Positions 7,614 through 45,374 of a stretch of DNA of 64,000 bases are shown piece after piece. Each line of letters begins with the position of its first letter. Position 1 is the stretch's first letter. The DNA comes from Bacteroidota bacterium (GTDB lineage Bacteria; Bacteroidota; Bacteroidia; JABEUT01). The stretch spans positions 88,548 through 152,547 of the forward strand of contig JABDCA010000003.1 of assembly GCA_013288345.1 (NCBI GenBank), in the 5' to 3' direction. The position numbers and the translations under genes are program-made. The notes below the pieces were generated by a model. That model was not told where the DNA came from, did not search any database, and saw nothing but the letters and a program-made list of their open reading frames with translations.

Positions 7614-8050
7614 ATGAAATATTGTTAATAAATATTTGATAATACAAAGGTCGTTGCTATAGAGTGGTGTCAAGAGTTAGTCGCAAGAATAAGCAAAAAC
7701 CTGTAAAAAGATAGAAATAAGAAAAAGTGATAATAGGTCGGTTAATATGGCTGCAATGCAGAACTGTAAAGGCTCAGGAACGAATCGACAAGAAAACTTA
7801 TTGCGTATTGTTTCCGAATAGGCATTCTCCGCTGCAATCCCTAACGCGAGAACCAATTACAAATTAGGAATTACAAATTAGGAATTAAAAATGGAGATAA
7901 TGTCTCCAAAACGTGAGGTGGAAAGATGCACCATAGGAATGAACACATAGATGCACAGGATTATTCATAACTCGTTTATTTGCTATTGAACTCATGCTGG
8001 CTACGCCGATGTGCCAAATGAACGGAATACTGTATTAAATGGTTAAAGGA
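7614..8050. other. Gene-free gap between recombinase and core genome
   Basis: No gene. It contains the recombinase promoter region, possibly the right attachment site, and a direct repeat of ACAAATTAGGAATT words at 7855-7890, a variant of the attacgaatt family seen elsewhere in the window. A second repeat-like stretch lies at about 7919-7962. I could not find a matching direct repeat at the left side of the island. Confidence 0.4.
7855..7890. repeat. Short tandem-word repeat, attacgaatt family (copy 1)
   Basis: Two units of ATTACAAATTAGGA followed by ATTAAAA. The same word family recurs at 25127-25158, 25253-25284, 34893-34925 and 38062-38094. Confidence 0.7.
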
Positions 8051-22070: not shown

Positions 22071-22094
22071 ATGTTTCGACAAACTCAACACGAC
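22071..22094. repeat. Half copy of the GTTTCGACAAGCTCAACA palindrome
   Basis: ATGTTTCGACAAACTCAACA followed by CGAC, only one arm of the family seen at 10613 and 16275; it abuts the 3' end of the gene at 22109. Confidence 0.7.
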
Positions 22095-25088: not shown

Positions 25089-25126
25089 GTAAAAAACGAA
25101 TTTATAATGGTAAAGATAGTAATACT

Positions 25127-25284
25127 TAATTACGAATTAAAAATTACGAATTACGAATGCCATACAGCGTGTTTTTTTGATACAGTCTAAGTACAATTTG
25201 TTTATTGTTTAGATTCTGTGAGGCCTCTTGGTTTTTTATTGAGAATATTATAATTCGTAATTCGTAATTTTTAATTCGTAATTA
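25127..25284. repeat. 158-bp element with perfect 32-bp inverted repeats, attacgaatt family
   Basis: Left arm 25127-25158 and right arm 25253-25284 are perfectly complementary over 32 bp; each arm is made of ATTACGAATT words. The 94-bp spacer (containing CATACAGCGTGTTTTTTTG) has no ORF. It lies in the divergent promoter region between the RDD and DUF4139 genes. Confidence 0.9.
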
Positions 25285-25321
25285 CTTATTCATGTATATT
25301 TACCCCATATAATCTCTCTCC

Positions 25322-27045: not shown

Positions 27046-27427
27046 AAATAACCTAAGCAAACGTAAGTTTGATTTGGAAGAAAGATTAATTGATTTTTCT
27101 GTTCTTATTATAGAAATTTCCGAAGGTTTACATGGTTCTCCTGCCGGAAAGCATATTTCGGGCCAAATTGTCAGATCGGGCACATCACCGGCATTGCATT
27201 ATGGCGAGGCTCAAAGTGCAGAATCGAGGGCCGATTTCGTTCATAAACTAAAAGTGTTATTGAAAGAATTGAGAGAAACCTTAGTTGGCCTAAAAATTAT
27301 TAAAAGGGTTCCGTTGGCAAATAAAATGGAAATAATAGATAAGGGCATTGTTGAGTGTAATGAATTAATTGCGATTTTTAACAAAAGTGTTGAAACAGCA
27401 AGAAATAATAATGACGTAAAAAAATAA
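27029..27427 (+). CDS. Four-helix-bundle protein (S23 / 23S rRNA-IVP family)
   Basis: A 132-residue helical protein of the S23/IVP family, related to Avd of diversity-generating retroelements: 'DLEERLIDFSVLIIEISEGL', the signature 'GKHISGQIVRSGTSPALHYGEAQSAESRADFVHKLKVLLKELRETLVGLKII', and a last helix. The pentameric bundles of the family carry a basic nucleic-acid-binding face. The start ATG 27029 lies inside repeat copy 2, so the first five codons are repeat-derived; the frame is open upstream through both repeats to the stop codon of the previous gene. An inverted repeat closes the gene at 27446. It is not in an rRNA gene here. Function unknown. Confidence 0.85.
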   Translation: MSNAEINNLSKRKFDLEERLIDFSVLIIEISEGLHGSPAGKHISGQIVRSGTSPALHYGEAQSAESRADFVHKLKVLLKELRETLVGLKIIKRVPLANKMEIIDKGIVECNELIAIFNKSVETARNNNDVKK

Positions 27428-27445
27428 GTCGCAGGTATTTAACTT

Positions 27446-27478
27446 CAGTATTCGATATTCCTTGTTCGATATTCATTA
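27446..27478. repeat. Inverted copy of the GAATATCGAACAAGGAATGTCGAA family
   Basis: Reverse complement of copy 1 with one mismatch in the 26-base core. It lies 18 bp after the four-helix-bundle stop codon and 13 bp before the next start codon. Confidence 0.85.
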
Positions 27479-27490
27479 TTTCAGATAGAT

Positions 27491-30515: not shown

Positions 30516-33128
30516 ATGATCAAAAAATTACATCTTTTTATTGCAATTATTATTGCAGGCTCATTAACCGCTCAAACATCAATACCCAATAGTGGTTTTG
30601 AAAAATGGAACTATACCAGTTGGTTAGATCCGCAATATTATATCACATCGAATGTGAATAATATAACAAAAGGCTTACCGGTAAATGTAACGCAATCGTC
30701 CAGCTCGTATCATGCAAAAATTGCCGTACAAATGACAACAGTTGCCACAGGCAGTGATACATCGGCCGGTTACTTTTTTGATGGCCAGCCTACCAATAGC
30801 GGGTTTCAGGGTGGTATTCCGTACAGCCAAAAACCTACAGGCTTGCGGTTTTACTATAAATATACCCGCACAGCTACCGACACAGGCGTGGTGCTTTGCA
30901 TATTTAAATTAGGGGGTACTACCATAGGCGGGAAGGAAATAAAATTAGATACAGCGAAAAATTATAAGTTGAGCTACACCACATTTAGCTTGCCTATAGC
31001 ACCCGATAGCATTATGTTTGGCGGCCTTTCATCTATTGGCGCTATTCAAAACACCGATAAACAAATACCCGGCAGTACATTAATTATAGATAGTGTTACG
31101 TTTACCGGCGTTACCAGTCAACCGGCCATGCTTAACGGCGATTTAGAAAGCTGGGTAGGTGATACACTAAAAGCGCCGCAGGGCTGGTATATACAAAATA
31201 ATAGTAGCAGTGTGCTCAGTAACCAAACTACCGATGCCTATACAGGTAACTATGCACTTATAATAAGTTCTGTTCTTCAAAATTACCAAGGTGCCGATTC
31301 TACCTTTACGGCTGAGGCTACAACAGGTATAGAGTCAAACAACGGCTTGCAGGGCGGATACCCATTTACACATAAAGTAGATACCATTGAGTTTTATTAT
31401 AAGTATGCCCCTGCCAACCCTAACGACAGTGCCATTATGCAAGTGGGGCTGAAAAATAGCGGCGTATTTATTTTGTATCGCGATACTATGTTAGCCGCAT
31501 CAGCTTCATATAAACGTGTGCGGGTACCCTTCTCATCCAATAGTACTCCCGATAGTGTTACGGTAACCTTCAACTCATCAAAAAAATGGAGAACAGGGCC
31601 ATCCTACACAGGAGCAGTTTTAAAGGTAGATAATGTACGTTTCTTATCACAGGCAGTACCGCCTGTGGCTGCCTTTACCGGTGGCACCGTGGTATGCGTA
31701 GGTTCTACTATTAACTATGCAAGCACATCATTAAACGCACCAAGCACAGTAAGCTGGACCTTTGGCGGCGGTTCACCGGGCACTTCGGGTTTAGCAAGCC
31801 AATCGGTATTGTATTCTGTAGCGGGCCCATATACTACCAAACTGGTAGTAAGCAACAGTGCAGGCAGCGATAGCATTACAAGTACGGTAACTGTAGTTAC
31901 AGCGCCTACTATAAAGTTCACAGGTAATACAGCTATATGTTCGGGTACCAATACTATTATTACAGCTTCGGGTGGCAATACCTATTTGTGGAGCACCGGT
32001 TCTACCAACGATACCATTAATGTATCTCCGGCATCAACCAAAACCTATTCGGTTACAGCTACTGCCATTGGCGGATGTTCTGCCAGCAATAGCCAGGCGG
32101 TAACAGTTACCCAAACACCTCCTGCTCCTTCGGCAGGTAGCAACAGCCCTTTATGTAGTGGCACAACACTTAATTTTAATGCTACCGCAGCAAATGCTAC
32201 TTCTTATACCTGGACAGGGCCTAATGGCTTTAGTTCGGGTTCGCAAAATCCGTTTATAAGTAGTGCACAGGTTCTGGCTTCGGGTACTTACACTGTTACC
32301 GGAACTAATGGAGGTTGCACCGGCCCAATAGCAACAGAATCTGTAACTGTTAATCAAACACCTGCTGCACCTTCGGCAGGTAGTAACGGCCCTATTTGCA
32401 GTGGTATAACACTTAACCTTAACTCTAACTCGGTGGGTGCTACCGGTTATACCTGGACAGGCCCTAATGGGTTTAGTTCGGGTTCGCAAAATCCGTTTGT
32501 GACAAATGCACAAGTTGTGGCTTCGGGTACTTACTCGGTTACGACATCATCGGCAGCAGGTTGTACCAGTACTTTAGGAACCGTTGCAGTAATAGTTAAT
32601 CCAACACCTACTGTGTCTGCATCCTATAATCCCAATAACGATACTATCTGTAATGGATCGAATGTAGTTATTACCGCTGCAGGCGGTGGTGCGGGTGCAA
32701 CGTATACCTGGTCGCCTAATATTGGTTTAAGCGCCACAACAGGTGCAATGGTTACTGCCAACCCAACCGGCGACCAAAAATATACAGTGGTTGCTACCAC
32801 TACACTTAACTGTTCGAATACCTTAGATACTGCAGTGTATGTAAAAACATGCGTTACGGGTATTGAGTCTTTAAATCAATTGCAACAGGTGGTGGTTTAT
32901 CCGAACCCAAGCAATGGTGTTTTCACCATTGAAGTGAAAAGTGAAGAGTTTAAAGTGAAAAATGTAGAGATTTACAATATACTTGGCGAACAGGTTTGTT
33001 CACCATTTACAATTCACCACTCACAATTCACCATTGATTTAAGCAGCAGGCCAGCAGGTATTTATTTTTACACAATTTATAATACAGCAGGCGAAGCCAT
33101 TGACCGTGGTAAGCTTATCATTAAGTAA
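30516..33128 (+). CDS. T9SS surface protein with PCMD-like, PKD and Ig-like domains
   Basis: An 870-residue exported protein: signal peptide 1-19; two copies of a PCMD-like carbohydrate-linked domain (about 24-190 and 200-385: 'PNSGFEKWNYTSW...', 'LNGDLESWVGDTLKAPQGW', 'IDSVTFTG', 'VDNVRFLSQ'); a PKD domain (about 390-460); Ig-like repeats (about 465-790) including two close copies containing 'TWTGPNGFSSGSQNPF'; and a type A T9SS sorting domain. In the sorting domain both arms around the 'YNILGE' core ('SEEFKVKNVEI', 'FTIHHSQFTIDLSS') are encoded by repeat words. It should be a cell-surface adhesin or binding protein. A paralogue follows at 33647. Confidence 0.85.
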   Translation: MIKKLHLFIAIIIAGSLTAQTSIPNSGFEKWNYTSWLDPQYYITSNVNNITKGLPVNVTQSSSSYHAKIAVQMTTVATGSDTSAGYFFDGQPTNSGFQGGIPYSQKPTGLRFYYKYTRTATDTGVVLCIFKLGGTTIGGKEIKLDTAKNYKLSYTTFSLPIAPDSIMFGGLSSIGAIQNTDKQIPGSTLIIDSVTFTGVTSQPAMLNGDLESWVGDTLKAPQGWYIQNNSSSVLSNQTTDAYTGNYALIISSVLQNYQGADSTFTAEATTGIESNNGLQGGYPFTHKVDTIEFYYKYAPANPNDSAIMQVGLKNSGVFILYRDTMLAASASYKRVRVPFSSNSTPDSVTVTFNSSKKWRTGPSYTGAVLKVDNVRFLSQAVPPVAAFTGGTVVCVGSTINYASTSLNAPSTVSWTFGGGSPGTSGLASQSVLYSVAGPYTTKLVVSNSAGSDSITSTVTVVTAPTIKFTGNTAICSGTNTIITASGGNTYLWSTGSTNDTINVSPASTKTYSVTATAIGGCSASNSQAVTVTQTPPAPSAGSNSPLCSGTTLNFNATAANATSYTWTGPNGFSSGSQNPFISSAQVLASGTYTVTGTNGGCTGPIATESVTVNQTPAAPSAGSNGPICSGITLNLNSNSVGATGYTWTGPNGFSSGSQNPFVTNAQVVASGTYSVTTSSAAGCTSTLGTVAVIVNPTPTVSASYNPNNDTICNGSNVVITAAGGGAGATYTWSPNIGLSATTGAMVTANPTGDQKYTVVATTTLNCSNTLDTAVYVKTCVTGIESLNQLQQVVVYPNPSNGVFTIEVKSEEFKVKNVEIYNILGEQVCSPFTIHHSQFTIDLSSRPAGIYFYTIYNTAGEAIDRGKLIIK
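32926..33036. repeat. Inverted simple-word repeats inside a T9SS sorting domain
   Basis: Left arm 32926-32965 (GTGAAAAGTGAAGAG... words) and right arm 33000-33036 (TTTACAATTCACCACTCACA...) are imperfectly complementary and flank the codons for 'YNILGEQV'. Both arms are translated. Confidence 0.7.
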
Positions 33129-33148
33129 ACCGGTTTTGTTCTTTTGTA

Positions 33149-33184
33149 AAAAAGCCCTGAAGCATATGCTTCAGGGCTTTTTTT
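33149..33184 (+). terminator. Rho-independent terminator after 30516 gene
   Basis: AAAGCCCTGAAGCA and TGCTTCAGGGCTTT form a perfect stem, followed by T7. A strong terminator. Confidence 0.9.
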
Positions 33185-33646
33185 ATAATGAATGTCAGGT
33201 TGTTTAAAAGTAATGCACTATTTTATTACATGTAGTAAACTAATTGGTTATTTTTGTATTGATAGATATAAACGATAAGCGATGAACTATGAATTTAAAA
33301 CATTGTGGACTCTGTGTGGCTGTTTACTTTGCGTTCTTTGCGGTAAAAAAAACGTTATTACAGCGGAGTAAAAAAAAGTATATAGTACGACATGGAACGA
33401 CAAAAAACGACATGAGTAAAACTCAAATCACGGTTGACAAAATGCAATTTTTTTCACAGCTCATTTTATTGAAAACCAATAGGTTGATGGTTGACAAAAC
33501 CTCAAAAGTGTCAACCGTGTTCAGAGGTTTTAGAAATCAAAAAACGGGGACACGAAAACACGAAGCGTGTGCATAAGTGTGCCATTTTTTATTCCCCGAT
33601 TATTTAATATATATTTGCTATACAAAACCAATCTATAACACACATC
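33185..33646. other. Gene-free gap with short inverted repeats
   Basis: An ORF of 95 codons from 33289 lacks any family resemblance, contains repeat words (CTCTGTGTGGCTG and CTTTGCGTTCTTTGCGG) and inverted repeats (CACGGTTGAC at 33429-33438 with GTCAACCGTG at 33510-33519; AAACCTC / GAGGTTT), so I do not accept it as a gene. The promoter of the 33647 gene is at 33610-33617. Confidence 0.5.
33610..33617 (+). promoter_or_regulatory. Probable -7 box of the 33647 gene
   Basis: TATATTTG fits TAnnTTTG and lies 30 bp before the ATG. No good -33 TTG at the expected spacing, so moderate to low confidence. Confidence 0.4.
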
Positions 33647-35086
33647 ATGATCAAAAAAATACTAACCCTTGGTTTAGCAATATTTGCAGGCAGTACTTTA
33701 TTTGCACAAACCGCAATACCCGGTGGCGATTTTGAAACATGGGATTCTACCTTTTGGCAGGAACCGGCTTTTTACAGCACATCTAATGGGGGCAATAATT
33801 TACCCATTGGCGCTCCGCCAAATGTTGTGCAAGCTGCTGCTTACCATGGTAAGTACGGTATTCAGTTAACTACCATAAAACAAGGCCCTGATACATCGTT
33901 TGCTTATTTTACCAATTCCACCGGTAACCCGGTGCAGGGGCAGGGCGGCATACCATATAACCAAAAGGCTACCGGCGTTCGCTTTTATTATAAGTGCAGT
34001 ACAATTGCAAATAAAGATACAGCAGGAGTAATGTTTGTGTTTAAAAAAGCGGGTAGTGTAATTGGTGTATACGAGTATAAATTAGTTGGCAATGTATCAT
34101 CTTATACGCTTTACAGTAAAACATTCAGCCCTGCTTTGTCGGTAGCACCCGATTCTGTAATTATTGCAGCCATATCATCTATTGGCGCATTACAAGGCAC
34201 AAGTTGCTATCCGGGCAATTCGCTTACACTCGATAGTTTAACTTACACCGGCGTTGCCAGCCAACCTGCTATGCAAAACGGCGATTTTGAAAACTGGATA
34301 CAGGATTCATTATATAACCCAGCCGGATGGATTGTAATAAGTACAGCTAACCCGCGTACTACTGATAAGTACACAGGCAAGTATGCTCTTGAGCTCAGAT
34401 CAGGCGTATCGGTAAATAATGGAGGCCAGGTGCAACCTGGTTATGCCACTACCGGAAAAGAATTGCGTATAAACAATCACCACGATACCCTTGCAGGTGG
34501 TTATCCTTATGCAAAACAAATAGATTCACTTATATTTTATTATAAGTATGCCCCTGCCGCTCCCGGTGATACGGCAGAAGTAAACTTGCAGTTCAATAAA
34601 AATGCTAAAGTTATATATAACACCGGCACATATATTAGTAACCCTGAAGCTACATATACACGCATGTCGGTACCATTTAACGTAGGTTCTGTACCCGATA
34701 GCGTTATAATAGGCTTTGAATCATCAAGGCAGGATAATAACGGTAATGTAAACGCTGCGTATAACGGAACAGTATTAAAAATAGACAGCCTGCACTTTGC
34801 CTCGCAACCTATTACTGTAGGCATTATGCCTATTATAGTTGCCGAGGGTATAAAGGTTTATCCGAACCCGAGCGACGGAAAATTTTCCGTTGCAATTACG
34901 AATTACGAATTAGGAATTACGAATGTGGAGGTATACAATATACTTGGCAAGCAGGTATGTTCGCAATTTACAATTAACCATTCACCATTTACCATTGATT
35001 TAAGTAGTATGCCTGCAGGTGTTTATAGTTTAAAAATAACTACAGGTAAAGGCGTTCAATACCAGAAGCTTATAAAAGCACAGTGA
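33647..35086 (+). CDS. T9SS surface protein with two PCMD-like domains
   Basis: A 479-residue exported protein, paralogous to the N-terminal half of the 30516 product: signal peptide 1-20; two PCMD-like domains ('IPGGDFETWDSTFW...', 'MQNGDFENWIQDSLYNPAGW', each closing with 'LDSLTYTG' or 'IDSLHFAS'); and a T9SS sorting domain ('KVYPNPSDGKFSVAITNYELGITNVEV'). The arm 'ITNYELGITN' is encoded by the attacgaatt repeat word and the second arm 'FTINHSPFTIDLSS' by the CACCATTTACCATT type words. No PKD or Ig-like region. Cell-surface binding role expected. Confidence 0.85.
   Translation: MIKKILTLGLAIFAGSTLFAQTAIPGGDFETWDSTFWQEPAFYSTSNGGNNLPIGAPPNVVQAAAYHGKYGIQLTTIKQGPDTSFAYFTNSTGNPVQGQGGIPYNQKATGVRFYYKCSTIANKDTAGVMFVFKKAGSVIGVYEYKLVGNVSSYTLYSKTFSPALSVAPDSVIIAAISSIGALQGTSCYPGNSLTLDSLTYTGVASQPAMQNGDFENWIQDSLYNPAGWIVISTANPRTTDKYTGKYALELRSGVSVNNGGQVQPGYATTGKELRINNHHDTLAGGYPYAKQIDSLIFYYKYAPAAPGDTAEVNLQFNKNAKVIYNTGTYISNPEATYTRMSVPFNVGSVPDSVIIGFESSRQDNNGNVNAAYNGTVLKIDSLHFASQPITVGIMPIIVAEGIKVYPNPSDGKFSVAITNYELGITNVEVYNILGKQVCSQFTINHSPFTIDLSSMPAGVYSLKITTGKGVQYQKLIKAQ
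34893..34925. repeat. attacgaatt word repeat inside a T9SS sorting domain (copy)
   Basis: CAATTACGAATTACGAATT then AGGAATTACGAAT, translated in frame as 'AITNYELGITN'. Same words as the 32-bp inverted repeats at 25127 and 25253. Confidence 0.85.
34963..34998. repeat. CACCATTTACCATT word repeat inside the same sorting domain
   Basis: AATTTACAATTAACCATTCA followed by CCATTTACCATTG, translated as 'FTINHSPFTID'; matches the right arm at 33000-33036 of the previous gene. Confidence 0.75.
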
Positions 35087-35104
35087 TTGATAAGAAACAG
35101 ATGA

Positions 35105-35136
35105 CAAAAAGCCCTGCAGTTATGCGGGGCTTTTTA
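35105..35136 (+). terminator. Rho-independent terminator after 33647 gene
   Basis: AAAAAGCCCTGCA and TGCGGGGCTTTTT form the stem around GTTA, followed by T run. Confidence 0.85.
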
Positions 35137-35161
35137 ATGATAAACAATCAGGTAAATAATG

Positions 35162-35169
35162 TATATTTG
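35162..35169 (+). promoter_or_regulatory. Probable -7 box of the 35211 gene
   Basis: TATATTTG, 42 bp before the ATG, the same octamer as in front of the 33647 gene; the -33 element is weak. Confidence 0.4.
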
Positions 35170-35210
35170 AAATAATAACCACAATCCCTCAATAAATTAA
35201 AATAGCCATA

Positions 35211-38200
35211 ATGAAAAAGTACGCAAAATATTTATCGGTTTTATCTGTATTACTGGCATTGGGTTGTAATACCGCAAATGCTCAGAATATAAATACTATG
35301 GCCGGCAATGGCACAAGTGGTTATAGTGGAGATGGGGCAGCAGCTACTGCTGCAACCCTTGGAGGCGAAACATTAGGTGTGGCAAAAGATGCAGTTGGCA
35401 ATACTTATATAGCCGATTATTTTAATAACCGTGTGCGGATGGTTAATGCTGCCGGTATTATAAGCACAATAGCAGGTGGCGGCACAGGCGGAGACGGAGG
35501 GCCTGCAACTGCGGCAAGCTTAAACGAGCCCAGGTTTGTAACTGTGGATAAGGCAGGCAATATTTATATATCTGAAAGGGGTAGCAACCTTGTTCGCAAG
35601 GTGAATACACTGGGTATAATAAGCACAATAGCCGGTGGTGGTGCAGGTGGAGATGGGGGGGCTGCAACGGCGGCATCGTTAAACGCACCATACGGAATAG
35701 CTGTAGATGCATCAGGTAATGTTCTAATTGCAGATCAGTTAAATAACAGCATACGTAAAGTAGATACACTTGGCATTATAACCACCATTGCAGGTAATAG
35801 TGCATTCGGCTACATAGGAGACGGAGGGCCGGCAACTGCAGCAGAACTTACAGAGCCATTCGGCATAACCCTCGATGATTCAGGTAGCCTTTATATTGCC
35901 GATTGGGGTAATAAAGTTATTCGTAAAATAAATACATTGGGTATTATAAGCACAGTGGCAAAAGGGTTTGACCAACCATTTGACGTGACGGTAGATAGTG
36001 CCGGTAATATGTTCATTGCCGATTACCTGGCTTCTTATATTTATAAAGCTGACAAATTTGGTACTGTAACAATTTTTGCGGGCAAGGGCAGTTTTGGATT
36101 CAGCGGAGACAACGGGCCGGCTACTGCAGCACTAATAGGCGGGCCAACAGGTATTGCGCGCGATGCTTCAGGTAATATTTACATGGGTGATGCAGGAAAT
36201 TATCGTGTGCGCGAAATTTATACCCTGCATAAACCTGTGACCAATTTTACTACTGCCGATTCGGTAGTTTGTTATGGAAATACAGTTCAATTTACAGATG
36301 AATCGTCAAATAAAATTACCAATAACCCCTCAAGCTGGAACTGGACGTTTACAGGCGGTACACCTGCATCATCTTCTGCACAAAACCCATCTGTGGTATA
36401 TAATACCCCTGGTACATACAGTGTAAAACTTGTAACTTCTAATGCTGCAGGTTCCGATAGTCTTACAAAAACAACTTACATAACAGTACGCTCGGTGCAA
36501 GCTCCTGCATTGACTATTAGCAGTAATGTAAAAGGCGGACTAAAAGTATGTGCAGGTACTGCTGATACGCTTATAGCTAATGCCACAGGTACCGGTCCGT
36601 TTAGTTATAACTGGTCAACAGGCCAGACAAATGATACAGATCTGGTTTATCTGGCAAATACATATTCTGTAATAATTACCGATGGTAATGGTTGCAGGAA
36701 TAATGCAACAGCAACATTGGTAGTTAATGCATTACCTAATGTGGGTATAACTACAGGTACAAGTACAATATGCGTTGGTTCTAATACCACGCTTACAGGT
36801 ACAGGCGCCAATACGTATGTATGGACAGGCGGGCCTGCTACTGCAAGCTATAAGGTTTCGCCGACAAGTACAACTACATACACGGTAACCGGAACAACTA
36901 CAGTTACTTCATGCAGCAATACTGCTACACATGTTGTTACTGTAGATGTGGTGCCTATAGTAAAGGTAGTGGCATCATCCGATACGTTATGTTACAAAAA
37001 TTCAAGTATACTTACATCAAGTGGTGCAGTTAGTTATACATGGGCCCCTTCAACAGGCCTCAATACCATTTCAGGTACAAGTGTAACAGCATCTCCGGGT
37101 GCAGGCAGTATTACCTATACGGTTACAGGTACAAATTTATGTGGTAGCAATAAAGATTCGGTTACGCTGAAAGTAAACTCCTTACCATCAGTAATAATAA
37201 GTGGTAATTCCGGTTTTTTATGCGTAGGTGCAGATGTGCTCACAGCTATTCCTTCGGGTGCATTGCCGTTTAACTATAATTGGAGTAACGGCAGTACAGC
37301 AAATAGCATAAGTGTTACAAACCCCAATACCTATAGTGTAACCGTTAAAGATGCAAATGGTTGCGGCAATACGGCAAGTTTTAATGTGGCCACTGATATT
37401 GCACCTGCTACTCCTTCTATATGTATGGTAACGGTAGACAGCACATCTTCAAAAAATTTAATAGAGTGGGATAAGCCTGCGCAGGGCTCTATAGACAGCT
37501 TTAGGATTTACAGGGAAGTTGCGTCGGTATATAAACATATTGCAAGTTTACCTTATAAGGCATTCAGCGTTTTTACCGATACTACCAACGGAGTAAATCC
37601 TAATATTACATCATATCAATACGAAATATCGGCTGTAGATACCTGCGGTAATGAAAGTGCACTGAGCTCCTTTCATCGCACCATACACGTATCAATAAGT
37701 CCTGCTTCGCCTTGTGGCTATAATCTTAACTGGAACGATTATATAGGGTTTAATATAACCCAATACCTTATTTACCGCGACAGCGCTAATACCGGCTGGA
37801 AGGTGAAAGATTCGGTAAGCTTTGGAAACGTGGCCTGGAGCGACCCAACCTGCTATGCCAAAAACGATACAATCGGTTACATGGTAGAAGCTGTGAATCC
37901 CAGCCCATGTACACCCAGTGTAATGGGACATAAGGCCATTACTGCAACATCTACCCGCAGCAATACCCAGCATAATTTGGTTACTGGTGTGCAGGACTTA
38001 AACCCAGCGGTAGCATCTGTATTAGTATACCCAAACCCTTCCGACGGAAAATTTTCTGTCGCAATTACGAATTACGAATTAGGAATTACGAATGTTGAAG
38101 TGTATAATATCCTTGGAGAGATTGTGTATTCGTCATCGTCAGTTGGCCATTCTCAACTATCTATTGATATAAGTAATATGCCTGCAGGTGTTTATAGTTT

Positions 38201-38255
38201 AAAAATAACTACCGGTAAAGGTGTGCAGTACCAGAAGCTGGTAAAGGCGCAGTAG
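35211..38255 (+). CDS. T9SS surface protein with NHL propeller, PKD and Ig-like domains
   Basis: A 1014-residue exported protein: signal peptide 1-24; an NHL-repeat beta propeller (about 30-345) with repeated 'YIADYFNNRVRMVNAAGIISTIAGGG' type blades; a PKD domain (about 350-425); three or more Ig-like or CHU-type repeats (about 430-740); a fibronectin-like part (about 745-930); and a type A T9SS sorting domain (KVYPNP equivalent 'VLVYPNPSDGKFSV') whose arm 'AITNYELGITN' comes from the attacgaatt repeat. It should be a large surface-displayed binding protein. Tandem arrangement with 30516 and 33647, each with its own promoter and terminator. Confidence 0.85.
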   Translation: MKKYAKYLSVLSVLLALGCNTANAQNINTMAGNGTSGYSGDGAAATAATLGGETLGVAKDAVGNTYIADYFNNRVRMVNAAGIISTIAGGGTGGDGGPATAASLNEPRFVTVDKAGNIYISERGSNLVRKVNTLGIISTIAGGGAGGDGGAATAASLNAPYGIAVDASGNVLIADQLNNSIRKVDTLGIITTIAGNSAFGYIGDGGPATAAELTEPFGITLDDSGSLYIADWGNKVIRKINTLGIISTVAKGFDQPFDVTVDSAGNMFIADYLASYIYKADKFGTVTIFAGKGSFGFSGDNGPATAALIGGPTGIARDASGNIYMGDAGNYRVREIYTLHKPVTNFTTADSVVCYGNTVQFTDESSNKITNNPSSWNWTFTGGTPASSSAQNPSVVYNTPGTYSVKLVTSNAAGSDSLTKTTYITVRSVQAPALTISSNVKGGLKVCAGTADTLIANATGTGPFSYNWSTGQTNDTDLVYLANTYSVIITDGNGCRNNATATLVVNALPNVGITTGTSTICVGSNTTLTGTGANTYVWTGGPATASYKVSPTSTTTYTVTGTTTVTSCSNTATHVVTVDVVPIVKVVASSDTLCYKNSSILTSSGAVSYTWAPSTGLNTISGTSVTASPGAGSITYTVTGTNLCGSNKDSVTLKVNSLPSVIISGNSGFLCVGADVLTAIPSGALPFNYNWSNGSTANSISVTNPNTYSVTVKDANGCGNTASFNVATDIAPATPSICMVTVDSTSSKNLIEWDKPAQGSIDSFRIYREVASVYKHIASLPYKAFSVFTDTTNGVNPNITSYQYEISAVDTCGNESALSSFHRTIHVSISPASPCGYNLNWNDYIGFNITQYLIYRDSANTGWKVKDSVSFGNVAWSDPTCYAKNDTIGYMVEAVNPSPCTPSVMGHKAITATSTRSNTQHNLVTGVQDLNPAVASVLVYPNPSDGKFSVAITNYELGITNVEVYNILGEIVYSSSSVGHSQLSIDISNMPAGVYSLKITTGKGVQYQKLVKAQ
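38062..38094. repeat. attacgaatt word repeat inside a T9SS sorting domain (copy)
   Basis: Practically identical to 34893-34925, also translated as 'AITNYELGITN'. Neighbouring sorting-domain codons are more diverged than this repeat. Confidence 0.85.
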
Positions 38256-38277
38256 TTTGTAATAAATAAGATAGTAA

Positions 38278-38304
38278 GAAGCCCTGCAAATGCGGGGTTT
38301 CTTT
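38278..38304 (+). terminator. Rho-independent terminator, possibly two-way
   Basis: GAAGCCCTGCA and TGCGGGGTTTC form a stem followed by TTTA. It separates the convergent genes ending at 38255 and 38308. Confidence 0.75.
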
Positions 38305-38307
38305 ATG

Positions 38308-39417
38308 TTAAAACAATTTCTTGTATTGCTCAGTATAGTTCTTTTTCAGGAAGTATTGTTCAGCTAAGGATTGGTTATGTTGTTTAGCCTCTGCCGATGG
38401 GCGTTTTAACGATGTAAAGTCAACTGCGTTTGCAAGCGAGCCACAGTTATGTTGTTGTACAAATGCACTATAGTCGCCAATATGTTCCGATATAAGTACA
38501 GGCAGGCCTGCAGCAAGGTATTCGGCAAACTTAACGGGCGAGCTTACCTGGTTGGTAACAGAGTTCTCGCGGAGCAACAGTCCGTAATCGGCAGCCTGCA
38601 GGTAGTTCTGCACTTGGTCTTCAGCAAGCCATTGTTGTATAACCCTGCCGGGGAACTTTTGTGCCAGCGACTTTTCAGCGCCGGGTTTGCAGAGCATAAG
38701 TAGCTTTAGTGAAGGGTTTTGAGTAAAGGCCTTAGTAATGGTTTCATCTAGCACTTTAAACGATTGCCAACCTGCTGAAGAACCTGAATAGGCAAGCAGT
38801 ATATCAGTATCTGCTATGCCAAGTTGCTTACGAAGGGATGTAGCATTTGCAGCATCGTAAGTTGTTCTTACATGGGCGCCTAAGGTACATGGTATAACCG
38901 AATGGCTTAGTGCCATGTATTTGAATGAGGTTTTCCAATAGTCGACCAGCTTTTGCGAAACGGCAATACGTGAGTTCGATTGTAGTACGGCTCTGCTTTC
39001 CATCTTGGTCATTTCGTTAGCAATAGCAGGGGCTTCGTTCTTTAAATATTCGGTCCATTCTGCGGTGTAGGCGCCACGTGCATCAAAGCATACCTTCCCG
39101 AACTTCTCGCTGTCGCGGGCAAGCAGTGTAGCAAATACACCTCGGGCAATAACGTTCTCTTTTTTTAATAGCATTACAGCAACACTTAACAGAAACATGT
39201 TCTTCTCCCAATTGGCAATGCCCGGGTACATTGGTAAAACTGTAGAGTTGTGGTAACTTGCTTTTATTTTGCTGCGGTTTGCCATAAAGCCACGCCCCGA
39301 TATAAAGGCAATCAAATGTACCTTTTCGTGGAAGGTGTCTTCCCAAAAACGGCAGGTATCAATTACCTGGCTTTGGTAAATACCGCCGGGGGCATCGTTA
39401 AAGGTGAGGAATACCAT
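38308..39417 (-). CDS. GT4-like glycosyltransferase
   Basis: A 369-residue cytoplasmic glycosyltransferase of the GT-B fold. The C-terminal half has the nucleotide-sugar-binding pattern: 'LLAYSGSSAGWQSFKVLDETI', 'LMLCKPGAEKSLAQKF', 'WLAEDQVQNYLQAADYGLLLRENS', and 'SSPVKFAEYLAAGLPVLIS' where the usual ExxxxG loop has its Glu in 'KFAEYL'. Substrates cannot be told. It is the last gene of a three-gene minus-strand unit with WbqC (3 bp gap) and DedA, consistent with envelope polysaccharide synthesis. Confidence 0.8.
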   Translation of the reverse strand: MVFLTFNDAPGGIYQSQVIDTCRFWEDTFHEKVHLIAFISGRGFMANRSKIKASYHNSTVLPMYPGIANWEKNMFLLSVAVMLLKKENVIARGVFATLLARDSEKFGKVCFDARGAYTAEWTEYLKNEAPAIANEMTKMESRAVLQSNSRIAVSQKLVDYWKTSFKYMALSHSVIPCTLGAHVRTTYDAANATSLRKQLGIADTDILLAYSGSSAGWQSFKVLDETITKAFTQNPSLKLLMLCKPGAEKSLAQKFPGRVIQQWLAEDQVQNYLQAADYGLLLRENSVTNQVSSPVKFAEYLAAGLPVLISEHIGDYSAFVQQHNCGSLANAVDFTSLKRPSAEAKQHNQSLAEQYFLKKNYTEQYKKLF

Positions 39418-39420
39418 ATA

Positions 39421-40041
39421 TTAGCTTAGCAGTAATTGTTTTGAATGAGGCCCTTCGCAAAACAGCAAATCTATAATACTCAGGTTAGGTATAAAACCAA
39501 ATTTTTCCTGGAACACCTGCTGGTACTTTATGTTTTTTGCACAATGCTGCTCTATATAGTTTGGCGCTGAGAGGCTTCTGAGATCGTCGGCCTGTTCGTA
39601 AGTTTTTAAGTACTCGGCAGTGTAACTTAGTTTTATCTCGACCTGCATTAGTTTGTTTATGGCATCAAATACTTTGCGGTTCCAGTCAATAAGCAAAGTG
39701 GGCTTATAGTCGCCTTTGTATAAGGGCGCAAGCTCATGTTCAAAGTATTCGAAGTAAGGCGATCGGCGGTAAGCAGCCTCTAACGATCGCCAGTGGAGTG
39801 TTTGCCACTGTGCTTCGTAACGTATCTTAACATCTTTCAAGGGTGTTTTTACGTGGCGCTTTTCTAAGGGGACTATAAGCTTTAGCGGCCCGTTGGCTCC
39901 ATAAATGACGCATCGGTTGTAATAGAACTGCTTGTGGAAATGCTCGTGTATATCCCATTGGATTTCGGTATGTGCAAGCATGGCTGCATAATGGGGCAGA
40001 GGAGGCAAATAAGCAACAGGCAATATGGCAACAGGGTTCAC
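39421..40041 (-). CDS. WbqC family protein
   Basis: A 206-residue protein of the WbqC-like family: 'AILPVAYLPPLPHYAAMLAH', 'NRCVIYGANGPLKLIVPLEKRH', 'RYEAQWQTLHWRSLEAAYRRSPYFEYFEHEL'. WbqC is encoded in O-antigen-like gene clusters and is thought to act in polysaccharide biosynthesis; the exact activity is unclear. Its ATG overlaps the DedA stop codon by 2 bp, and the glycosyltransferase follows after 3 bp, a tightly coupled unit. Confidence 0.85.
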   Translation of the reverse strand: MNPVAILPVAYLPPLPHYAAMLAHTEIQWDIHEHFHKQFYYNRCVIYGANGPLKLIVPLEKRHVKTPLKDVKIRYEAQWQTLHWRSLEAAYRRSPYFEYFEHELAPLYKGDYKPTLLIDWNRKVFDAINKLMQVEIKLSYTAEYLKTYEQADDLRSLSAPNYIEQHCAKNIKYQQVFQEKFGFIPNLSIIDLLFCEGPHSKQLLLS

Positions 40042-40685
40042 TCTTTCTTTTTTGCCATTAGTCCGCGTAATACGCCATAAGCAGCAGGTATAAGCGATAC
40101 CACTATAATTGCTAAAGTAACAAGGCTGAAGTGCGCTTTAACCCAAGGGTTTTCGCCAAGTGCATAACCGGCCCATATAAACAGGTTTATCCATATTAGG
40201 TTACCCACTATGCTGAACAATATAAACCTGCTGTACGTCATGCTACCTACGCCTGCAACAAAGGGTGCAAAGGTGCGGATGATAGGCATAAAGCGTGCCG
40301 CTATAATGGTTTTGCCACCGTGCTTTTCGTAAAACTGGTGGGTACGTTCTAAATAGCTTTTATTGATAAAGCGCAGGTTCATACTGAATATTTTAGGCCC
40401 GAAATACCTGCCAATAAAGTAGTTTGAGTTATCACCGGTAAAGGCTGCAATAAACAAGAGTATAATAAGGGTAGGTGCATTAAGTACGCCCATACTGCCT
40501 GCAATGGCGCCTGCTGCAAATAACAACGAATCGCCCGGAAGGAAAGGGGTTACAACAAGCCCGGTTTCGCAAAAAATAATCATAAAGAGAATAAGATATG
40601 TCCAGCTTTTATACTCGCCCACTATGGTTTTAAGGGCGTTATCTGCATGCAGCAGCATATCTATCCAGTGCTTAATCTCTTCCAT
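40038..40685 (-). CDS. DedA family membrane protein (VTT domain)
   Basis: A 215-residue inner-membrane protein with the VTT/SNARE-associated domain of DedA proteins, which move undecaprenyl phosphate or other lipids between leaflets: 'FCETGLVVTPFLPGDSLLFAAGAIAG', 'GDNSNYFIGRYFG', 'FYEKHGGKTIIAARFMPIIRTFAPFVAGVG', 'FILFSIVGNLIWI'. Start ATG 40685, since the TTG at 40712 adds nine residues without support. About five membrane segments. It is first in the WbqC/glycosyltransferase unit, fitting lipid-carrier recycling for polysaccharide synthesis. Confidence 0.9.
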   Translation of the reverse strand: MEEIKHWIDMLLHADNALKTIVGEYKSWTYLILFMIIFCETGLVVTPFLPGDSLLFAAGAIAGSMGVLNAPTLIILLFIAAFTGDNSNYFIGRYFGPKIFSMNLRFINKSYLERTHQFYEKHGGKTIIAARFMPIIRTFAPFVAGVGSMTYSRFILFSIVGNLIWINLFIWAGYALGENPWVKAHFSLVTLAIIVVSLIPAAYGVLRGLMAKKKE

Positions 40686-40899
40686 TATATATGATAATAA
40701 ATAGGTTGCCAAAAATAGCGGATTTTCATTTACTTAGCCCAGTGTTATTGTTATTCCGAAATAATTACTAATATTGCATCGCATTTCCCTCTCAACTTAT
40801 TAAACAAGCCAGATAATTACCGGGTATACAGTATAGAATTCAGACACGCATTTTTTCCCCACATCTTACTAAGACATAACTCCAACAACATAACTTATT

Positions 40900-42486
40900 A
40901 TGTACGACATCGTTGACTTAAACACCAAATCGTTGGTACAACTCAAAGAGATTGCAAAATCGCTTAGGATTACCAAACTAGAAGGCCTTAAAAAACAAGA
41001 CCTTGTTATTAAAATACTCGAAACCCAGTTAGGTTCATCTGGCGATACCAAAGGCGATCATGTGCCAGAACACAAACCTAAAGTGGGCGCTAACCACCCA
41101 AGGGCTTTAGAAAAGAAACACGAAGACACACCTGTATTGCCTGCTTATAACGAACCTGAACCTGCAATGCCTGTTGCCGAAGAACCGGTAAAAGAAGTTG
41201 TTGCTGAAAGCGCAGCGCCTGCAACACAAGGCCTGCCCGATTTTATTACGCCTCCTGAAAATACTAATGCGCATAACAGCGGTAGTAATAGCAACACCGG
41301 CAATAGCGGTGGTAATGGTGGTAACAACGGCAACAATAACCAACAACAAAGAGAACCACAGTATAACTTCGATAATATTGTAGGCGCTGAAGGCGTATTG
41401 GAAATTATGCCCGATGGTTACGGCTTCCTGCGTTCTGCCGATTACAACTACCTCAATTCACCCGATGATATTTATGTTTCCCAATCGCAGATAAAGCTGT
41501 TTGGATTAAAAACCGGCGACACCGTTAATGGCTATGTACGCCCGCCACGCGAAGGCGAAAAGTTTTTCCCGCTTACCCGTGTAGACCTTATCAATGGCAA
41601 ATCGCCGGATGTAGTGCGCGACAGGGTACCGTTCGATTTTTTAACTCCTTTGTTCCCACACGAAAAGTTTAACCTGGCAAGCCATCCTAAGGCTACCTTG
41701 TCGAGCCGTATTGTAGATATGTTTACCCCTATAGGTAAAGGCCAACGCGGACTTATTGTAGCGCAGCCTAAAACAGGTAAAACAGTATTGCTTAAAGAAA
41801 TTGCAAACGCCATTGCCGATAACCATCCGGAGGCATACCTTATTATATTGCTTATTGACGAACGCCCTGAGGAGGTTACCGATATGGCCCGTAGTGTAAA
41901 GGCTGAAGTTATTGCATCTACATTTGATGAACCTGCTGAACGCCACGTGAAGATTGCCAACATAGTACTTGAAAAAGCTAAGCGCCTTGTTGAATGCGGT
42001 CACGATGTGGTTATATTATTAGATTCTATTACCCGCCTTGCACGTGCTTACAACACGGTATCGCCTGCATCGGGTAAAGTATTATCGGGTGGTGTAGAAG
42101 CAAACGCTCTGCAAAAACCTAAACGTTTCTTTGGTGCTGCACGTAAAATTGAAGATGGTGGTTCGCTTACCATATTGGCTACAGCCCTTATAGATACTGG
42201 TTCGAAGATGGATGAGGTGATATTTGAAGAGTTTAAAGGAACAGGTAACATGGAGTTACAACTCGATCGTCGCCTGTCGAACAAACGTATCTTCCCGTCT
42301 ATTGATATTGTATCATCGAGCACACGCCGCGATGATCTGTTGTTGGATAAAGAAAACCTGCAACGTATTTGGGTATTGCGTAATCACCTTACCGATATGA
42401 CTCCGATAGAAGCTATGGAGTTTTTACGTGAGAGATTGGTTCGTACTAAATCGAATGCTGAGTTTTTGGTCACCATGAACGATTAA
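40900..42486 (+). CDS. rho: Transcription termination factor Rho
   Basis: A 528-residue ring ATPase that terminates transcription by translocating along RNA. N-terminal Rho_N helix domain (1-45), then the Bacteroidota-type insert (about 46-155), which is Pro/Glu- then Asn/Gly-rich ('[16 protein letters not shown]'), then the cold-shock RNA-binding domain with 'DGYGFLR' (172-178), and the ATPase domain with Walker A 'AQPKTGKT' (288-295), Walker B 'VVILLDS', the Q-loop '[17 protein letters not shown]' and R-loop region. All family parts are present. The low-complexity insert varies in this phylum and may promote condensate formation. An own promoter region of about 190 bp and a terminator at 42528 mark a single-gene unit. 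Confidence 0.98.
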
Positions 42487-42527
42487 CAGCCCACCTTGCC
42501 TCCCCAATAGGCTTGGTAACGAAAAGA

Positions 42528-42560
42528 CAAAAGCCCAACTCATATTGAGTTGGGCTTTTT
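42528..42560 (+). terminator. Rho-independent terminator after rho
   Basis: AAGCCCAACTCA and TGAGTTGGGCTT form a perfect 12-bp stem with a TAT loop, then T run. Confidence 0.9.
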
Positions 42561-42589
42561 AGTTAAAGGGAGATTAAATGGTATAGGGA

Positions 42590-45229
42590 TTATTCTTTAA
42601 TGATCTTAACATAAGTTCCGCCCGCATTCAAAAAGTAAATACCATTAGGTTGGTCACTTAAATCAATGGACAATTGACGATTAACAATGGACAATTGTAA
42701 AGGAATTTTTTCTCCTAATATATTATACGCGGTTATTTGTGTTCTCTCATTGTCCATTGTCCATTGTCCACTTTCAATTGTAATTGTGAATTTTCCGTTG
42801 CTTGGGTTGGGATAAACTTTTATTGAGGCATTTTCGCTACTGATATTGTTAATGCCCAGCGGAGAAGTTAGTTGTGTTTCCCACAAGCCTCTGCCAAAGG
42901 TACCTGCACGTAATAGGTTACCTGATTGTTGTATGTCGAGCGAGTAAACCATAACATTAGGTAGCCCGGTATTAAAGCTAAGCCAGTTTCCGCCCTGTGT
43001 GTTGTCGGTATAAAAAACACCTATATCGGTTCCTACAAATACCCGGTCGTTGTTCGATGTTTCGTCATACACAACACAATCTACCGGTACATTTGGTAAG
43101 CCTGTGCTTGTATTGGCCCAGGTAGTTCCGCCATCGGTAGTTTTGTAAACCTTAATGCCCGATGTGTAATTCGAAAAGGTAACCCATACCGTTAGCGGAT
43201 CGGATGCTTTTACAGCAATTGCAGAAATATAAGCAGATGCTATGGGCAATGTGCCGGTAACATTGGCCCATGTTGCACCTCCATCAGTAGTTTTAAAAAG
43301 GAAGGTACCCGGAATATTGTTGTAGCCTGTATTTACACCCATTGCCGCGTATAAGTAGTTCGAGTTCGATGGCGATATGGCCATAGCCATTACAAGGTCT
43401 GTTGCTGTTCCGGTAAGGTTATTGCTCACCTTTGTCCATGCAGTGCCCTGATTGGTGGTTTTCCAAATGTCGTTGTATCCGGCGTAAAGCGTGGTGTTTG
43501 TGTTTTTATCAATTACATAAGGCGTAACCCATGCACCCGTTACAACTCCGCTATTGGGTGTAATTACAGTAAAGCTTGTTCCTCCATTTGTGGTTAACGA
43601 AATTTTTCCGCCGTATGTTGCTGTATATATAGTACTGGCGTTTGTGTAATCAACAATGGTCATCATTCCGTCTCCCTGTTGGTCCTCAGACCATGCACCG
43701 CTGTTAAGCAAATTGCTGCCATTATCCTGCACGCCGCACGATACCAATGTGGTGTTTGTTTGTGCGCTGCTGATGTTGTACATTTCCATTATGGTAAGGC
43801 CGGCACTCAGGTCGGTCCATGCAGTACCTGTATCAGCCGATTTGAATAAGCCGCCATCGCAGCCTGCTAAAATAGAAGTAGAGCTACCCGGCATAAATAC
43901 CAGTTTATGAATATCAGAATGTACATAATTTGGGTTGTTATGAAGCGATGTTCCTTTTGATTTGTTTATCCAGGTTGTGCCGCCATTATCCGATGACCAG
44001 ATGTTTATGCCACCTATAAAAATGGTGTTGGCAAATTTTGGCGATGCTACTAATGCAAGATCGCCCCAGCCTTGCCCGCCTGCAGTTGAGCCAAGCGGTG
44101 ATGAACCCAACACGTTAGGGCTGTTCGACATTTGTGTAAATGTTACACCACCATCAGTTGATCTTACCAATGCATGAAAACCGGAATTAGCGGAGTCAGA
44201 CTCAAGTGCATATAGGTAATTTGCATTTGCGGGTGTAACGGCAAGCTGAAGCCTGTTTGTACCTGATGCATTATATACAGCAGTAAATGAACTCCCCGAA
44301 TCGGTCGATTTGTAAACGCTGCGATAGTTACAAGCATACACAACTGCCGAATTGCCTGGTTTAAACTGTATATCGTAAATGCGGTGCCCCGTCATTGAGT
44401 TTGTCCATGTGGTACCACCGTTAAGCGATTTGGCTACGCCGTTATAATTGCCCACCATTATCATGTTATGGTTGTTTGGGTTTATAACAATTTTGTTCAT
44501 GTAGAAGCCCTGATTGGTTTGCCAGCTTAGGCCTGTAGTTTTCCAGGTAACTCCTCCATCGGTCGATTTCATAACGCCGGTAGAGTAGGTATATATCACA
44601 TCGCCATCGCCGGTGGCTATATAAATAATGCTTGTATCTGTAGGGTCAATAGCAATATCAGTTACACCTAATGTAGCCAGATAGTCTGATGTGGGTGTCC
44701 ATGTTGTGCCGCCGTTTGTGGTTTTCCATAAACCACCCGATGGTGAACCTACATAAATGGTATTTGTATCAAGTGGATTTACTGCGACGCAATTCAGCCT
44801 GCCTTCTCCACCTTTGGTAGGTATCGATGCAGGGCCTATAGATGTCCATGATGCGCTTAGTAGCGCTTTCTTATCCGTTCTTTGTTTGTCTTGCTGTTCA
44901 ATTCTGTTCCTTTCTAAATAAGCTATCATCGGGTTAGGCGACTGCCCTGTTGGGCTTACTCTTTTCGATGCAAACCATTCCCAACGCTTATACTGAATAT
45001 ATTCGCCATAAGCGCCATCCTCATCATCGTCCATTTGGTCCCTGTCTGTCATATCGAGACCTTTGGCATTCCAATAGGTGTTGAACGATTTTTGGATCTC
45101 AAAAAAACTTGGAGCAGCGCTGTCGGCAAACTTGTTCATCCAGGCTTGTGCTTTGCCTGTGTTTACCGTAATGGCCAGTATAGCTATAATGGCCAGCTTT
45201 AACATGTTTTGGGTAGTTGTGTTTTTCAT
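42590..45229 (-). CDS. T9SS surface protein with BNR/Vps10-like propellers
   Basis: An 879-residue exported protein: signal peptide 1-28 from ATG 45229 (the ATG at 45292 adds 21 residues with no export role). The body carries sortilin/BNR-type blades with repeated 'TTNGGTTW' and 'SxDxGxTW' Asp-box motifs, for two beta propellers, and a C-terminal type A T9SS sorting domain ('IKVYPNPSNGKFTI' ... 'NGIYFLNAGGTYVKIIKE'). In the sorting domain the arms 'GQWTMDNER' and 'LSIVNRQLSIDLS' come from a repeat of CAATTGTCCATTG words. Its promoter at 45375-45415 shares the ECF-type motif with that of the sigma gene at 48225, so it is probably controlled by that sigma factor. Confidence 0.85.
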   Translation of the reverse strand: MKNTTTQNMLKLAIIAILAITVNTGKAQAWMNKFADSAAPSFFEIQKSFNTYWNAKGLDMTDRDQMDDDEDGAYGEYIQYKRWEWFASKRVSPTGQSPNPMIAYLERNRIEQQDKQRTDKKALLSASWTSIGPASIPTKGGEGRLNCVAVNPLDTNTIYVGSPSGGLWKTTNGGTTWTPTSDYLATLGVTDIAIDPTDTSIIYIATGDGDVIYTYSTGVMKSTDGGVTWKTTGLSWQTNQGFYMNKIVINPNNHNMIMVGNYNGVAKSLNGGTTWTNSMTGHRIYDIQFKPGNSAVVYACNYRSVYKSTDSGSSFTAVYNASGTNRLQLAVTPANANYLYALESDSANSGFHALVRSTDGGVTFTQMSNSPNVLGSSPLGSTAGGQGWGDLALVASPKFANTIFIGGINIWSSDNGGTTWINKSKGTSLHNNPNYVHSDIHKLVFMPGSSTSILAGCDGGLFKSADTGTAWTDLSAGLTIMEMYNISSAQTNTTLVSCGVQDNGSNLLNSGAWSEDQQGDGMMTIVDYTNASTIYTATYGGKISLTTNGGTSFTVITPNSGVVTGAWVTPYVIDKNTNTTLYAGYNDIWKTTNQGTAWTKVSNNLTGTATDLVMAMAISPSNSNYLYAAMGVNTGYNNIPGTFLFKTTDGGATWANVTGTLPIASAYISAIAVKASDPLTVWVTFSNYTSGIKVYKTTDGGTTWANTSTGLPNVPVDCVVYDETSNNDRVFVGTDIGVFYTDNTQGGNWLSFNTGLPNVMVYSLDIQQSGNLLRAGTFGRGLWETQLTSPLGINNISSENASIKVYPNPSNGKFTITIESGQWTMDNERTQITAYNILGEKIPLQLSIVNRQLSIDLSDQPNGIYFLNAGGTYVKIIKE
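42664..42790. repeat. Inverted word repeats CAATGGACAATTG family inside a T9SS sorting domain
   Basis: 42664-42699 (CAATGGACAATTGACGATTA...) and 42748-42790 (CATTGTCCATTGTCCATTGT...) are complementary arms around the codons of 'AYNILGE'. Both arms are translated. Confidence 0.8.
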
Positions 45230-45374
45230 GGTATCAGCTTTTGGGTTTAAATTAACTAAAATTGACAGGTTAAGCGGAGTAGTACAAGCCACACAAGTAA
45301 TAAACCGATTAAGAGGATGGAAAGCTTTTGATTTTTCATAGGATAAATATTATGGCGTTAATTGCCTCCTATTA

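Follow-up and report, generated by a model that had tools for sequence, protein, structure and literature searches.

A stretch of 64,000 nucleotides from a Bacteroidota bacterium (GTDB lineage JABEUT01; contig JABDCA010000003.1), referred to here as the window, contains several genes that end in the type A C-terminal sorting domain (CTD; PF18962) of the type IX secretion system (T9SS). We found that two loops of this domain, on either side of its conserved YNILGE core, are in some of these genes and in related CTDs of the same genus built from short DNA repeats that also occur between genes. The repeats keep to fixed positions and frame, they are identical at the DNA level beyond what the protein demands, unrelated families occupy one and the same site, and the words are mostly of the host genome's own version. 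We propose that dispersed repeats have been recruited in frame, repeatedly, into two permissive loops of the CTD, followed by selection and some spread from CTD to CTD, and we put the probability of this reading at roughly 0.57. None of the titles and abstract openings listed in our searches of openly licensed papers describes repeat-built CTDs.

Repeat-built loops in the window

The genome of the window (G000; other genomes of the genus are coded G001 and so on) is a 2.99 Mb draft in 90 contigs that is 86.7% complete. It has 120 PF18962 matches (E of 0.001 or lower). Seven lie in the window, and the proteins concerned all pass the curated cut-off of the family (27 bits) at their extreme C terminus, with 43.9 to 57.1 bits. 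From their sequence, these tags are predicted to direct T9SS secretion. In four of the genes, named here by their lower coordinate, repeat words in 7-bp tandem flank the YNILGE core:

30516..33128, plus strand: T9SS substrate gene with PKD/Ig-like repeats and a PF18962 CTD at its end
33647..35086, plus strand: T9SS substrate gene with a PF18962 CTD (34856-35083)
35211..38255, plus strand: T9SS substrate gene (NHL/PKD) with a PF18962 CTD
42590..45292, minus strand: sortilin-like T9SS substrate gene with a PF18962 CTD

The arrays of these 7-bp units (heptads), a palindrome next to one of them and intergenic arrays of the same kind are located as follows:

32912..32931, plus strand: perfect palindrome CAATGGTGTTTTCACCATTG coding for SNGVFTIE, just ahead of loop 1 of gene 30516
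32932..32964, plus strand: loop 1 heptad array of gene 30516, AGTGAAA-type, EVKSEEFKVKN
32999..33035, plus strand: loop 2 heptad array of gene 30516, TTCACCA/TTCACAA; SPFTIHHSQFTI
34894..34924, plus strand: loop 1 heptad array of gene 33647, AATTACGAATTACGAATTAGGAATTACGAAT, AITNYELGITN
34964..34996, plus strand: loop 2 heptad array of gene 33647, QFTINHSPFTI
38063..38093, plus strand: loop 1 array of gene 35211, AATTACGAATTACGAATTAGGAATTACGAAT, AITNYELGITN; same as 34894-34924 in 31 of 31 bases
42748..42792, minus strand: loop 1 array of gene 42590, GGACAAT words; TIESGQWTMDNE
42664..42695, minus strand: loop 2 array of gene 42590, CAATTGTCC (CATTGTC) words, LSIVNRQLSID; partly complementary to loop 1
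25121..25158, plus strand: intergenic AATTACG heptad inverted repeat, left arm
25253..25290, plus strand: intergenic AATTACG heptad inverted repeat, right arm (reverse complement, 95%)
7852..7892, plus strand: intergenic AATTACA/AATTAGG heptad array

A predicted model of the 33647 CTD (pLDDT 88) has strands at 9-12, 23-27, 33-37, 45-48, 55-62 and 67-74. Its best match in the PDB is the T9SS-bound CTD 8glk (chain D; TM 0.76), with 8gl6 at TM 0.70. By this prediction for a single CTD, the host domain of the repeats has the Ig-like beta-sandwich fold of the solved type A CTDs. Setting the array columns against the strand positions of the model, loops 1 and 2 are predicted to be the b1-b2 and b3-b4 connectors plus adjoining strand ends.

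Apart from the loop 1 array of gene 30516, which it had missed, all of the CTD arrays had been reported in a preliminary description of the window and were recovered here. Its claim that each of the four CTDs carries two repeat segments stands for 30516, 33647 and 42590; in 35211 the array is confined to loop 1, and loop 2 has diverged and carries none. The paralogues 33647 and 35211 thus share the first arm (as we call a loop array) in all 31 bases while their CTD region agrees at 80%, and the second arm is an array in 33647 alone. The CTDs of genes 8051, 22869 and 54797 are, as reported, free of repeat words (no array at a score of 8 or more in the last 240 nt). The non-coding inverted copies of the attacgaatt words are also real: the arms at 25121-25158 and 25253-25290 are 95% complementary at a spacing of 94 nt. 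When synonymous codons were resampled in 2000 draws, the observed best score was reached twice for 33647, never for 35211, once for 42590 and 120 times for 30516, which taken alone is therefore weak.

Heptad arrays and dispersed words across the genus

The wider sample comprised 401 genus CTDs, which were reduced to 345 by identity of the last 150 nt because some genes had entered twice. One gene remains twice (L166 and L322), and the counts of 30, 35 and 48 given below are each one too high. G004, a near relative, has 112 domains, of which 30 entered as loci; a further 71 (of the remaining 82) were assigned to 46 regions, and 40 of these regions are included. Heptad arrays abound in the intergenic DNA of G004 (12 in 38 kb), yet 23 kb of its CTD sequence has one. 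Array scores of 14 were regarded as strong, and 12 served as the lower threshold.

A strong array at a lag of 7 is present in 30 of the 345 CTDs. Synonymous resampling, repeated 200 times, gave 1.2 on average and never more than 5; this null preserves the proteins but not the kinship of the sequences. At the same score no array was found at lags 4-6 and 8-13 in these CTDs; over lags 4-15, arrays occur at 7 and its multiple 14 only. The 120 CTDs of G000, scanned over lags 4-14, likewise have strong arrays at lags 7 and 14 alone, in six CTDs each. A period of 7 bp is unexpected from repetition at the level of codons. The words thus exceed what the amino-acid consensus predicts, a point on which the preliminary description had made its proposal depend.

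Placement is equally strict. At threshold 12, all 48 arrays lie in profile columns 9-25 and 32-50, and none in 1-8, 26-31 or 51-76. Grouped by eye, the words of loop 1 are of the types AATTACG/AATTAGG, AGTGAAA/AGTTAAA, AATGAAG, GGACAAT, AGCTAAG and AGTCGTC, and those of loop 2 of the types TTCACCA/TTTACAA, CAATTGT, AATTCCT, TTCGTAA, CATTCAA, AGCCAAT, ATAGTTC and ACTGACC. The profile placement bears out the earlier observation that different families sit at homologous sites. Among paralogues on contig C14 that are about 60% identical upstream, one carries NYELGITN and another weaker GGACAAT-like words (score 8) in the same place.

The NYELGITN arm shows identity at the DNA level. Seven CTDs with this word (five from G000 and one each from G004 and G009) use the same codon in 162 of 168 pairwise comparisons within the word, compared with 36%, 38% and 46% agreement for same-residue codons in three non-loop regions (pairs not independent). 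By this test, which the preliminary description had proposed, the words are far more alike in DNA than the surrounding codons. When up to 3 mismatches are allowed, six of the eleven genus genomes together have 45 matches to the 31-nt arm, and its reversed control has none. Of the 30 matches examined, 20 are intergenic, 8 belong to CTDs and 2 to other open frames. To one intergenic array, the arm is 90% identical.

Loop 2 also holds words akin to repetitive extragenic palindromic (REP) elements. The dispersed word CTTCGnnnnGCTCAGGnTGAC (up to 2 mismatches) lies in loop 2 of 13 CTDs, on one strand and in one frame, where it reads LRQAQGD or LRSAQDD and close variants (LR[QS]AQ[GD]D). Within the word 84% of codons are the same in these CTDs, versus 36-54% around it. 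Its first version, CTTCGACAAGCTCAGGGTGAC (2 mismatches allowed), was counted 29 times in G000, 14 times in G001, 9 times in G004, 6 times in G005 and twice in G009; the remaining six genus genomes, G002 and G006 included, have no copy. The second, CTTCGCTCTGCTCAGGATGAC, has 11 copies in G002, 6 in G006 and one each in G000, G001, G004 and G008. Inside CTDs, the first version is found in G000, G001 and G009 and the second in G002, G006 and G008.

Forty copies of the REP word from seven genomes were examined, leaving out 3 copies of one version, 1 copy from G005 and 8 from G004. Of these, 24 are intergenic, 3 sit in open frames other than CTDs, 2 adjoin a CTD and 11 are inside CTDs; all 11 are on the coding strand, in frame 0 and 108-129 nt from the CTD start. 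The 8 G004 copies and the 29 of G000 were checked by eye against CTD coordinates; 27 of the latter lie outside CTDs. In G002, 5 of 11 copies fall in CTDs; by our own arithmetic from 150 listed domains, the CTD share of that genome is roughly 1%. The dispersed words are high-copy short repeats that lie mainly between genes, as REP elements do. Loop 2 of the G002 CTD L222 consists of a different REP-like word, GATGCTGAAACCAGTTCAGCATGAC, which equals an intergenic copy in 28 of 29 bases. REP elements have a cognate tyrosine transposase (RAYT) whose gene is flanked by the same repeat; in the genus, Y1_Tnp genes, scored for presence only, occur in 10 of the 11 genomes, with two in G000. In the window, copies of the dispersed repeat TTCGACAAGCTCA..GAC are located at 10615-10662, 16318-16337 and 22075-22094; a relative of this repeat codes for LRQAQGD in CTDs.

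In two of three genomes, the densities of heptad arrays link the CTDs to intergenic DNA. Per 100 kb, G000 has 35.8 arrays in CTDs, 0.6 in other coding sequence and 16.4 between genes, and the corresponding figures for G002, from stretches picked for CTDs, are 62.6, 1.4 and 40.4; by this measure the CTDs of both genomes are like intergenic DNA, in which heptads are the commonest array type sampled. Scored against the intergenic DNA of their own genome (score 19 or more), the G000 loops gave 9 hits for loop 1 and 7 for loop 2 (null 1.6 and 0.8), and the non-loop segments 0, 0, 1 and 0. This comparison replaced the exact sharing of 13-mers and 15-mers with intergenic DNA, which was weak, since AT-rich words yield chance matches and one run counted two short-frame CTDs as intergenic.

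In other families, 40 CTDs from 38 loci had no array at score 14 and two at 11-13. Arrays were also seen in CTDs of Lentimicrobiaceae, GWF2_35_48 and Calditrichaeota, in a sample that is biased because the selection words of the scan included NYELGITN. Insert-like segments were noted in further CTDs: in a Lentimicrobiaceae CTD (L130) a TAAPLGASSAKL segment interrupts the heptad arm, the G002 CTD L328 carries a palindromic EDACLSGRQGS insert near its end, and L392 has a long loop 2 with NPRPNGSAGRA.

Elsewhere in the window, a gene of the PF05635 (23S rRNA intervening-sequence) type at 27029-27427 lies between inverted heptad arrays of GAATATCGAACAAG words (26954-27043 and 27433-27480). In all, four PF05635 genes were found in G000, and three are flanked by heptad arrays. 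It is as if inverted heptad pairs existed in a gene-containing form and in a short gene-less form. Another inverted pair (TAGTCGTAAGTCG words, 43 nt apart; 19755-19851) stops 17 nt before the RNase P RNA gene (19868-20251). On the minus strand, a frame that encodes the end of a D-Ala-D-Ala ligase domain (16337-16840) shares 8 bases with the adjoining frame 16833-19055; a frameshift may have divided a single gene here.

Origin of the repeat-built loops

We favour repeated recruitment because loop 2 also houses unrelated REP-like words, most of them of the host genome's own version. Copies of the repeats would be written into the loops by repeat-templated conversion or insertion. The b1-b2 and b3-b4 loops would be permissive, which is the likely reason why repeats settle there, and the incoming words would reshape the tag. 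Copies bearing stop codons would then be purged and selection would favour a strand-turn-strand pattern. At a later stage, duplication or conversion may have carried some arms between CTDs, as is plausible for the NYELGITN arm of 33647 and 35211.

We translated eight words, two of which are mutual reverse complements. Because 7 and 3 share no factor, a perfect 7-bp tandem of each yields an identical 7-residue repeat whichever of the three frames of a strand is read, examples being NYELRIT, GQWTMDN and FTIHNSQ. An array is therefore read alike from any start, and only changes of 21 bp, or three units, keep the downstream frame. Some heptad strands meet a stop every 21 nt. In the CTDs, such words are broken by variant units (AGTTAAA among AGTGAAA), which were presumably kept by selection.

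A FastTree phylogeny of 44 non-loop columns, with gappy rows omitted, has at least 28 changes between presence and absence of an array and lends weak support to many separate events. The 35 CTDs with an array fall in 8 upstream single-linkage families, a count that says little because common domains hold one family of 140 together. Array-bearing pairs are less alike over the whole CTD, with the core at 50% versus 75% in pairs without an array (12 and 59 pairs, not independent).

Several observations weigh against recruitment. Outside G000 and G004, the genus CTDs were partly picked by similarity to an arm-bearing query, and because CTDs share ancestry, the number of sequences does not give the number of events. 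The CTDs of G004 are unlike its intergenic DNA, with 4.3 heptad arrays per 100 kb (one array) compared to 0.6 in other coding sequence and 31.8 between genes. Against their own intergenic DNA, the loops of G004 and G002 gave just 2 hits each, one per loop (null 0.6 and 1.0); in G002, one unmasked CTD fragment largely accounts for the hits in C-terminal segments. The sole copy of the REP word found in G008 is the one in its CTD. We came across no recent insertion with sharp boundaries. In the one ortholog pair at 80%, the G004 counterpart of 42590 (80% over 820 aa upstream of the CTD) is without both arms, but its whole CTD has diverged and not the loops alone. Two further points, the distribution of the exact NYELGITN 31-mer and the length of the loops, are taken up with the alternatives that they favour.

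The arms could have spread only among CTDs, by paralogue duplication or gene conversion, in which case the likeness to intergenic DNA would be old or would run in reverse, from CTD to intergenic DNA. We consider this unlikely, though several findings speak for it. The exact 31-mer occurs in 2 of 395 genomes of the class, at four places that are all in CTDs (and once more in the Lentimicrobiaceae CTD L088, sampled by name), and those intergenic near copies whose context was read differ from it by at least 2. The identical first arms of 33647 and 35211, whose CTD region agrees at 80%, point the same way. So do the endings of the REP word, which in CTD copies are mostly ..CAGGGTGAC or ..CAGGATGAC and in many other copies ..CAGTGTGAC, ..CAGGCTGAC or ..CAGACTGAC. 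Gene conversion between CTDs, which the preliminary description had raised, is plausible for the NYELGITN arm, whose exact form was found in CTDs only. Spread among CTDs alone is, however, hard to reconcile with several unrelated families at one site and with loop 2 words that mostly match the repeat of their own genome: the LRQAQ-type is absent from G002 and G006, which use the LRSAQ-type. Most REP-word copies lie outside CTDs (27 of 29 in G000, 6 of 11 in G002), and loop 2 of L222 is a candidate for a closer match in intergenic DNA than in any CTD.

Growth in place, by which strand-turn-strand loops expand into heptads through replication slippage without import, and intergenic arrays arise likewise, appears rather improbable. 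Loops with arrays are of ordinary length (median 16 in both groups for loop 1, 17 versus 18 for loop 2), so that replacement or in-situ growth fits as well as insertion, and the prevalence of heptads among intergenic arrays also agrees with a common process of growth. Perfect GC-containing palindromes in loop 1, present in 9 of the 345 CTDs against 0.5 in the synonymous null and six times at NG-x-FT, hint at local hairpin-templated correction; the same scan of loop 2 gave 0 against 0.4 expected. What growth in place leaves unexplained are the GC-rich REP words in one frame of loop 2 and the 90% identity between a 31-nt arm and an intergenic array.

That the two arms form a functional mRNA or DNA hairpin around the core is very improbable. 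The arms are inverted overall (permuted mean score 10.2 inverted and 8.1 direct), and they occur together in 13 CTDs (singly in 22, as 9 and 13; 309 have none), which may reflect shared descent. A few genes are strongly complementary and resemble inverted pairs (L166, one gene on L186, L197 and L381). Yet arms of the same gene score 10.62 on average versus 10.23 for arms of different genes (P = 0.36, N = 13 with both arms; P = 0.16 in the 35 genes with at least one arm), and many genes are one-armed. In 150 CTDs without arms a small same-gene excess is inverted and direct alike (P = 0.002 and 0.008) and looks like composition. The two arms as one inverted-repeat unit were therefore rejected as a general rule. 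Of the origin put forward in the preliminary description, repeated recruitment remains the best reading, but a hairpin or palindrome moving as a unit is not supported.

Plain protein conservation, to which we give virtually no weight, would suit a conserved domain whose arms read as amphipathic strands, but it is refuted by synonymous resampling and by codon identity inside versus outside the words.

Relation to known repeats and significance

In kind, the repeat-built loops are best placed beside intragenic REP elements and the Rickettsia palindromic elements (RPE). Intragenic REP elements (GTAG/CGTC palindromes) are described as short, dispersed and mostly intergenic, and decorate open reading frames of varied categories in some species, many of them for DNA synthesis and repair (PMC3733652). 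RPEs are reported as selfish elements of about 150 bp that are translated in frame within unrelated host proteins (PMC10969869). The repeats here likewise lie in frame within protein-coding sequence, but they concentrate at two homologous sites of one sorting domain, with 7-bp tandems as their main type. The words measure about 21-45 nt and belong to several unrelated families; the arms, at 27-45 nt, are no palindromic inserts of about 150 bp with an open frame of their own.

Tandem units of 7 bp are known from the cyanobacterial STRR heptamers, and the arrays in the CTDs have the same period. TAACTGA heptameric repeats, a single-word and largely intergenic family by the published account, occur in Beggiatoaceae, some Cyanobacteria and five Bacteroidetes (PMC4679880). 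By contrast, the CTD loops use many words, often as inverted pairs, as coding sequence. Palindromic amphipathic repeat coding elements (PARCELs) are repeat coding sequences with dyad symmetry that are proposed to spread between genes and genomes, and their tandem 25-residue amphipathic motif builds domains (PMC2996958). Here, in contrast, a short word sits in a foreign domain: the arms span about 10-16 residues with a 7-residue repeat.

Translated selfish repeats were previously known as scattered events in unrelated genes. In this genus they occupy two loops of many predicted secreted proteins, a natural setting in which to test how protein sequence arises from non-coding repeats. Where NYELGITN or LRQAQGD is met in such a protein, it is to be read as the signature of a DNA repeat and not as a conserved secretion motif. 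The loops named here are apparently tolerant of change, which is of practical use for asking what the translocon and shuttle read in the T9SS signal. We also entertain the possibility, which at present we would sooner doubt than accept, that the T9SS CTD is a docking site for the dispersed repeat families of its own genome, which would enter its two loops over and over in frame and renew the variable surface of the tag, so that each species brands its tags with its own repeats. If this were true, non-coding selfish DNA would supply and renew the variable surface of a protein-export signal.

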